Shown here piece by piece: positions 3,189 through 30,124 of a stretch of DNA of 34,082 nucleotides (its first letter is position 1; each line of letters starts with the position of its first letter). Source of the DNA: Candidatus Aenigmarchaeota archaeon ex4484_224 (GTDB lineage: Archaea; Aenigmatarchaeota; Aenigmatarchaeia; CG10238-14; EX4484-224); the NCBI GenBank assembly GCA_002254545.1, contig NJEA01000008.1, positions 1 through 34,082 on the forward strand, given 5' to 3'. The translations under genes were made by a program, and so were the position numbers. The notes under the pieces are model-generated. The model was not told the origin of the DNA. It made no database searches and saw only the letters and a list, made by a program, of their open reading frames with translations.

Positions 3189-3298
3189 GCCGGGGTAGCT
3201 CAGTTGGTTAGAGCGCTGCGCTCATAAGCAAATGAGCTTTGATAAAACATGAAAGCTAAGAAACGCAGAGGTCGCGGGTTCAAATCCCGCCCCCGGCA
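3189..3298 (+). tRNA. tRNA-Met(CAT), elongator type, with 36-nt intron at 37/38 (3227..3262)
   Basis: GCCGGGG/CCCCGGC acceptor, CTGCG/CGCAG anticodon stem, loop CTCATA^..^A. Intron contains ATGAGC pairing with GCTCAT and an AGCTTT/AAAGCT hairpin, consistent with a BHB. Confidence 0.92.
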
Positions 3299-3320: not shown

Positions 3321-3866
3321 ATGCATAGTTATTTCAAATATGCACAATTAACTTGGAATAAAAATTTTAAAATAAAAAAAGATGTCTTGGAAAATCCTAG
3401 AAATGGTAGAAATTTGATGTTTTTAGCAAAAATTGGATTTGAAGTTTATGGTATTGATATCTCTTCTTATGCTGTAAAAATTATAAAGAAATTAAGTAAA
3501 AAAGAAAATTTAAAAATCAATGCTAGAGTTGGAAATATTTTCAAGAAACTACCTTATAAAAACGAATTTTTTGATGTAGTAATTTATACCAGAACTTTAA
3601 ACCACGGAAAAATTAATTGGATTAGGAAAACAATAAAAGAAATTTATAGAGTCTTGAAACCAAGCGGATATGTATTTATAACTGTCCACAAACATAGAGG
3701 TAAAAAACATATTCCTAAAGAGAGATTATATGGAATTAAATGGATAGAACCAAGAACTTACATAATATTAGGTGGTCCGGAAAAGGGAATTATCCACTAT
3801 AAGTTTAATAAAGAGATTTTAATAAAAGAATTTAAGAAAGTTGGTTTTAGAATTTTGAAATTTTGA
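3321..3866 (+). CDS. SAM-dependent methyltransferase-like protein
   Basis: NGRNLMFLAKIGFEVYGIDISSYAV..FDVVIYTRTLNHG..IYRVLKPSGYVFITV. The listed ORF start at 3249 lies inside the tRNA, so ATG 3321 is preferred. Confidence 0.75.
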   Translation: MHSYFKYAQLTWNKNFKIKKDVLENPRNGRNLMFLAKIGFEVYGIDISSYAVKIIKKLSKKENLKINARVGNIFKKLPYKNEFFDVVIYTRTLNHGKINWIRKTIKEIYRVLKPSGYVFITVHKHRGKKHIPKERLYGIKWIEPRTYIILGGPEKGIIHYKFNKEILIKEFKKVGFRILKF

Positions 3867-29202: not shown

Positions 29203-29676
29203 TTAAGCAATTTGATTTATAATTTCTTTTTCAAATTTTTTCTTAGGTCTAACTGCCCTAAATCCCTTTTTAGCAAAATATGAAACATCTTTTGGAAAAG
29301 AAATTAACATTCCAATCTCATCTTTTGATAGATATGGATCATATAACTCTGAAACTTTATAGCTCCTTAATCTCTTTACTATTTCTTCCTTCTTTTCTTC
29401 ATAATCTATTTCTCTTTCCTCAATTTCAAAAATATACTTTTTAATATGAATTTGAACTTCTCTAACTTTTGTGTAGAATTGGTTTAAATCCTTAACTCTT
29501 AATACCATTCTTTCTTCGTCCGAAACATATCTTTTAATTTCTCCAGGAAAAAGTTCTTCAATAATTTCTGTAAGTTCTTTCTCTATGGATTCTTCTTTCC
29601 ATTCTGGCAAGGATTGCCTATAATAAACAGAAAATTGAACAAACTTTATTTTCCTTCTTCTTTCTAACCAACTCAC
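29203..29676 (-). CDS. hypothetical protein
   Basis: 157-aa ORF, charged, no family recognised. Confidence 0.6.
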   Translation of the reverse strand: MSWLERRRKIKFVQFSVYYRQSLPEWKEESIEKELTEIIEELFPGEIKRYVSDEERMVLRVKDLNQFYTKVREVQIHIKKYIFEIEEREIDYEEKKEEIVKRLRSYKVSELYDPYLSKDEIGMLISFPKDVSYFAKKGFRAVRPKKKFEKEIINQIA

Positions 29677-29763
29677 TAATTGAAGTTCTAAAAAAGCGAA
29701 TAAATTAGTATGCTTAAAGCTTATATCTAAACTTTATGATTCTCAAAATTCATAGAATTTCCT

Positions 29764-29820
29764 CCCCTCTGAACTTAAGGGTCTCATCATAGATCATGCT
29801 GCCCGTCATTCTTCATAGGG
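29764..29820 (-). ncRNA. candidate double-guide C/D-box sRNA
   Basis: CCCU-[C AUGAAGA]-12nt-[D' AUGA]-UCU-[C' AUGAUGA]-12nt-[D CAGA]-GGGG. Guide 1 holds UGACGGGC, complementary to 16S GCCCGUCA; guide 2 holds CCUUAAGUU, near-complementary to 16S AACUUAAAGG. Confidence 0.65.
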
Positions 29821-30051
29821 TTTAAGGTCAAATTAAATTTTTACTAAATAATTAAAATAAATATTAGTTATTTTGAGAAATCCTGAAATTATTAAAGGAT
29901 ACTTGGAATGATAGTTAAAGAAAATAGAATTATCTAAATTTAAAATTGTTAAATTTCTGAAAAATAGGGCTAGAAGTAGATGTCCTTGGTATATGGAATC
30001 ATAAATCTTAAACTTTTCTTTAGTTAGTATGTATAACTGGTTAAAACGATA

Positions 30052-30124
30052 TGGGCCCGCTGGGATTCGAACCCAGACGACGGGGTCCGAAGCCCCGCAG
30101 GCTATCCAATTACCTCACGGGCCC
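30052..30124 (-). tRNA. tRNA-Arg(TCG)
   Basis: GGGCCCG/CGGGCCC, anticodon arm CGGGG CTTCGGA CCCCG, T arm CTGGGTTCGAATCCCAG. Confidence 0.95.

Follow-up and report, generated by a model that had tools for sequence, protein, structure and literature searches.

A short intergenic element on the minus strand of the window, by which we mean the whole 34,082-nucleotide stretch of DNA analyzed here, very probably encodes a double-guide box C/D sRNA, with guides predicted to serve methylation of C1402 and U912 in 16S rRNA. The same sRNA gene recurs across one order of tiny archaea. The double-guide C/D-box reading had been advanced in an earlier note on the window, hereafter the original prediction, and it is supported by boxes that are conserved in relatives and by complementarity to the organism's own 16S rRNA.

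Layout, conservation and gene context

From 29820 to 29764 the minus strand reads CCC-U-AUGAAGA-AUGACGGGCAGC-AUGA-UCU-AUGAUGA-GACCCUUAAGUU-CAGA-GGGG, letter for letter as originally predicted, including two guide spacers of 12 nt each and a canonical C' box. The predicted GC-rich patch is likewise present: G+C rises locally to 0.45, from approximately 0.15-0.3 in the surroundings. Boxes and guides fall within the proposed span of 29820-29764, but the conserved structure reaches further, to 29827-29761. No open reading frame of at least 50 amino acids overlaps the element, and the intergenic stretch that holds it is bounded by a tRNA-Arg gene (30052-30124) and an ORF (29203-29676). The source genome is an archaeal assembly of 485 kb, 80% complete. 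The features, all on the minus strand, are as follows.

29759..29829, minus: C/D-box sRNA gene as modelled, 71 nt (covariance model R1 match, 86.1 bits)
29824..29827, minus: outer terminal stem, 5' strand CCUU, pairing with 29761-29764 (double changes in 4/4 pairs, 98% of cells paired)
29821..29823, minus: 3-nt bulge AAA separating the two stem segments (in most members, mostly AAA)
29818..29820, minus: inner terminal stem, 5' strand CCC, pairing with 29765-29767 (double changes in 3/3 pairs, 100% of cells paired)
29810..29816, minus: box C, AUGAAGA, with 3b = A where the consensus has U (sequence; 3b = A in 22/25 members)
29798..29809, minus: D' guide AUGACGGGCAGC, predicted D'+5 target 16S C1402, E. 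coli numbering (best of 4,466 rRNA registers, scored on a relative's 16S)
29794..29797, minus: box D', AUGA (sequence; NUGA in nearly all members)
29784..29790, minus: box C', AUGAUGA, canonical (sequence; mostly AUGANNA in the family)
29772..29783, minus: D guide GACCCUUAAGUU, predicted D+5 target 16S U912 (10/10 pairing with own 16S AACUUAAGGG; rank 1 of 4,466 registers)
29768..29771, minus: box D, CAGA, with 3n = A (sequence; 3n variable among members)
29765..29767, minus: inner terminal stem, 3' strand GGG (double changes in pairs)
29761..29764, minus: outer terminal stem, 3' strand GAGG (double changes in pairs)

Six genomes from the order of the source gave close homologs in a DNA search, and from these homologs we built covariance model R1. 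The model matched 25 of the 38 genomes of the order, and every one of the 13 with a completeness of 90% or more was among them. Elsewhere in the class there was no match at E ≤ 1e-4, and at E ≤ 0.01 the 159 genomes searched gave one weak, marginal match (G128, E 0.0048); the search for deeper homologs in the phylum covered the same 159 genomes. Boxes C, D', C' and D stand in this order in the 25 genomes, with guides of 10-12 nt, so that the boxes are kept in relatives, a check that the original prediction had suggested.

C and D are joined by a two-part terminal stem, consisting of four pairs, a 3-nt, mostly AAA bulge and three pairs, followed by the k-turn. In the 25-row alignment, which was fitted to the stem structure under test and thereby favours it, 99% of cells pair, and both partners change in each of the seven pairs. 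The covariation score was 0.638, compared with 0.273 in shuffles, none of 500 of which reached 0.638, and sliding the stem out of place gave at most 0.205. Even so, the strength of the covariation, together with this slide control, leaves little doubt about the two-part covarying stem.

These results bear on whether the boxes could be a chance arrangement without function, given that boxes C and D are short and that a complementarity of 10 bp is by itself not rare. A strict pattern of box C, guide, D', C', guide, D and a 3-bp stem occurs at only two distinct places in the approximately 483 kb of the source genome, the element included, and is absent from 12 genomes simulated by a Markov model with matched size and dinucleotide content, which argues against chance. 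Order-wide conservation and the covarying stem contradict it as well, and we give this explanation almost no weight.

It is also very improbable that the element regulates the downstream gene at 29203-29676 or serves as its untranslated leader, even though the two share a strand and the element precedes the ORF by approximately 85-145 nt. Beside the homologs, whose neighbours vary in kind and orientation, none of the ORFs that flank it in the window recurs, and flanking genes differ between families; the cis-regulatory leader was thus rejected, as the neighbours are not conserved. Since its flanking genes are not shared with relatives, and since in many homologs a TTTAWW box precedes the modelled start by 24-31 nt, the sRNA is a stand-alone RNA gene.

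The sRNA reached no Rfam 15 family at the gathering score, and the family is new relative to that release. Its best sub-threshold matches are archaeal C/D sRNAs, first sR14 (E 1e-6) and then sR47. These Pyrococcus families (RF01145 and RF01131, respectively) share with it the box order, spacing and double guides, but the guides differ, and the bipartite terminal stem with its 3-nt bulge is absent from both models. Membership in sR14 was discarded: the end-to-end alignment scores 28.9 bits against a gathering score of 38, and the match is by boxes only.

Predicted targets of the two guides

To rank targets, we took the 16S and 23S rRNAs of a relative and scored all their registers under the N+5 rule, in E. 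coli numbering, which we take from conserved sequence context and established knowledge. For the D' guide, C1402 was the best of 4,466 registers in 21 of the 25 members, the source's included, as the original prediction had anticipated by the D'+5 rule. The organism's own 16S contig (C6) ends before position 1399, the 3' half of the gene being absent from the assembly, so this target was tested on the 16S rRNAs of relatives only. On a 16S with C1400, the D' guide forms eight contiguous base pairs and one further pair; its position 3 makes an A·C mismatch, as it also does in one relative, G022. A 16S with U1400 would let the guide pair uninterrupted over positions 2-11. Two relatives with U1400 (G003 and G015) have a guide with A at the position that faces it, where all relatives with C1400 except G022 have G; as G003 and G015 belong to one family, this change is perhaps a single event. 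C1400 of 16S rRNA is usually invariant, and we observed U there at three loci, L070 (G003), L077 (G015) and L069 (G028), which read CACACUGCCCGUCA.

The proposed target nucleotide is not itself new, as published listings already record its methylation for P. abyssi, yeast, human, plants and E. coli: Cm1402 of E. coli equals Cm1369 of P. abyssi, Cm1639 of yeast, Cm1703 of human and Cm1645 of Arabidopsis, the last guided by AtU43 (PMC11542601). The likeness of the sRNA to the U43-type snoRNAs of eukaryotes and to the Cm1369 site of P. abyssi is one of target nucleotide, with no sequence homology claimed. The D guide could be set against the organism's own 16S rRNA, a check that the original prediction had called for. 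This 16S (contig C6) reads GAAACUUAAGGGAAUUGG, and the guide pairs at 10 of 10 positions with AACUUAAGGG; the predicted complementarity near 912 is present, without the mismatched position that had been expected within AACUUAA(x)GG. Taken by itself, a 10-bp match is modest, as approximately 6% of shuffled guides reach at least 10 bp against 16S and 23S. U912 was the first-ranked of 4,466 registers in 13 of the 25 members. Complementarity in the N+5 register was thus found for the D guide in the organism's own 16S, and for both guides when ranked on the 16S and 23S of a relative.

Conservation of the D guide is looser. In genus g2 it has been replaced by a guide complementary over 10-11 bp to 23S AACUCGGCAAA, where methylation would be expected at the AACUC site of 23S rather than at U912, and several further genomes keep the D' guide while their D guide has no U912 match. 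The D' guide is thus the constant part and the D guide the exchangeable one, in line with the description of guide modules by Dennis et al. (PMC4644070). Position 915 of 16S is G almost throughout the order, and D guides carry C or U facing it; strict covariation of guide and target there was ruled out, as both pair with G915.

Some further features of these rRNA and RNA genes were observed. An intron of approximately 480 nt, in which there is a LAGLIDADG-like reading frame, interrupts the organism's own 16S (L032, G000:C6), as does a short second insert. Inserts lie at or next to the 912 site in G016, G020 and apparently G007, and at the 1400 site in G007 and G006, so that 16S introns occupy the very sites that the sRNA would bind. 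On the minus strand of another contig (L131, G000:C28, approximately 3617-3780) we noted a guide-RNA cluster, in which an H/ACA-like hairpin (fold z-score -4.9) is followed by four C-guide-D units with a period of approximately 27 nt. One of its guides pairs with own 16S GGGAUUAGAUAC over 12 nt, and another fits AAGGGUGAA, just 5' of the D target of the window's sRNA; G004 (L140, contig C14) has a comparable run of C/D units, which also seems to follow a hairpin. On the same contig as the cluster, a tRNA gene (L131, 3027-3166, minus strand) has an intron that looks like a C/D-box sRNA (AUGAUGA ... GUGAGGA ... CAGA), which resembles the tRNA-intron guides known in other archaea. In the window itself, Rfam reports a 110-nt tRNA at 3189-3298 that is missed by ARAGORN and probably contains an intron.

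The terminal k-turn

The UGA of box C and the GA of box D, which form the tandem sheared G·A pairs, are kept in 25 of 25 members, as is a G-C pair at 4b·4n. The next position is loose: the U:U reported as usual at 3b:3n of box C/D k-turns (PMC5689011) is not kept in the family, where 3b·3n is A·A in 7 members, A-U in 11, A·C in 2, A·G in 2, and U·A, U·U and C·C in one each. The A residues noted in the original prediction at position 5 of box C and position 2 of box D are present, but they do not form the paired change proposed for them. As 3n varies independently of 3b, fixed as A in 22 of the 25, a compensated A·A change was ruled out, and the A·A of the window is one state of a loose position. 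Nor is A at 3b unprecedented, as the Rfam consensus box C of sR47 is also AUGAaGA. According to McPhee et al. (2014), a Watson-Crick 3b·3n pair blocks k-turn folding in metal ions alone, a rule that would fit a k-turn in this sRNA that waits for L7Ae.

Proposed action on the decoding centre

Genes for fibrillarin and Nop5 lie side by side in the source genome (contig C19), where L7Ae is also present. In every feature open to comparison at the sequence level, the element agrees with archaeal C/D sRNAs. We infer from these genes and from the sequence that in the source organism the RNA is transcribed, assembles into an RNP, pairs through its D' guide and serves methylation. L7Ae would bind the terminal C/D k-turn and the internal C'/D' k-loop, and Nop5 and fibrillarin would then join the L7Ae-bound sRNA. 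The D' guide would pair with 16S at approximately 1399-1408 and the D guide with 908-917. C1402 and U912, each of which faces the fifth nucleotide counted upstream from a D box, would then be methylated at the 2'-OH by fibrillarin while the subunit is still being made. Most likely, then, the sRNA steers 2'-O-methylation of two sites in the decoding centre.

Alternatively, its main job could be that of a 16S assembly chaperone, whose guides would keep hold of nascent 16S at the 908-917 and 1399-1408 strands, methylation being secondary. A long stretch of 16S sequence separates the two targets, which flank both strands of helix 28, and Dennis et al. proposed such a role for sR17 and sR15 of Nanoarchaeum equitans (PMC4644070). 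However, the D guide is swapped for one that fits 23S in genus g2, and the U912 match is lost in several other genomes while D' stays; it is thus the C1402 guide that is conserved, and not the bridge, which makes a chaperone as the main function rather unlikely. The comparison with N. equitans sR17 is itself partial: its bridging of two distant 16S strands resembles that of the sRNA, with targets A915 and U1371 in that paper's numbering, but D and D' serve opposite regions (PMC4644070), and the termini of N. equitans C/D sRNAs are reported as unpaired (PMC4644070, PMC3491384), unlike the stemmed sRNA described here. A more specific version, in which an order-specific chaperone of decoding-centre assembly would have its particle formation timed by the altered k-turn (3b = A and the bulged, two-part stem), seems to us doubtful, and less credible still.

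Guided methylation therefore stays the preferred reading of this sRNA family, which follows one order of small-genome archaea. C1402 carries methylation in each of the three domains, with machinery that differs among them; in bacteria, the protein enzymes RsmI and RsmH act at this site instead of a guide RNA. The family also supplies naturally occurring k-turns that have A opposite a free partner where U·U is usual, and published folding rules (PMC4382518, PMC5689011) may be tested on them.
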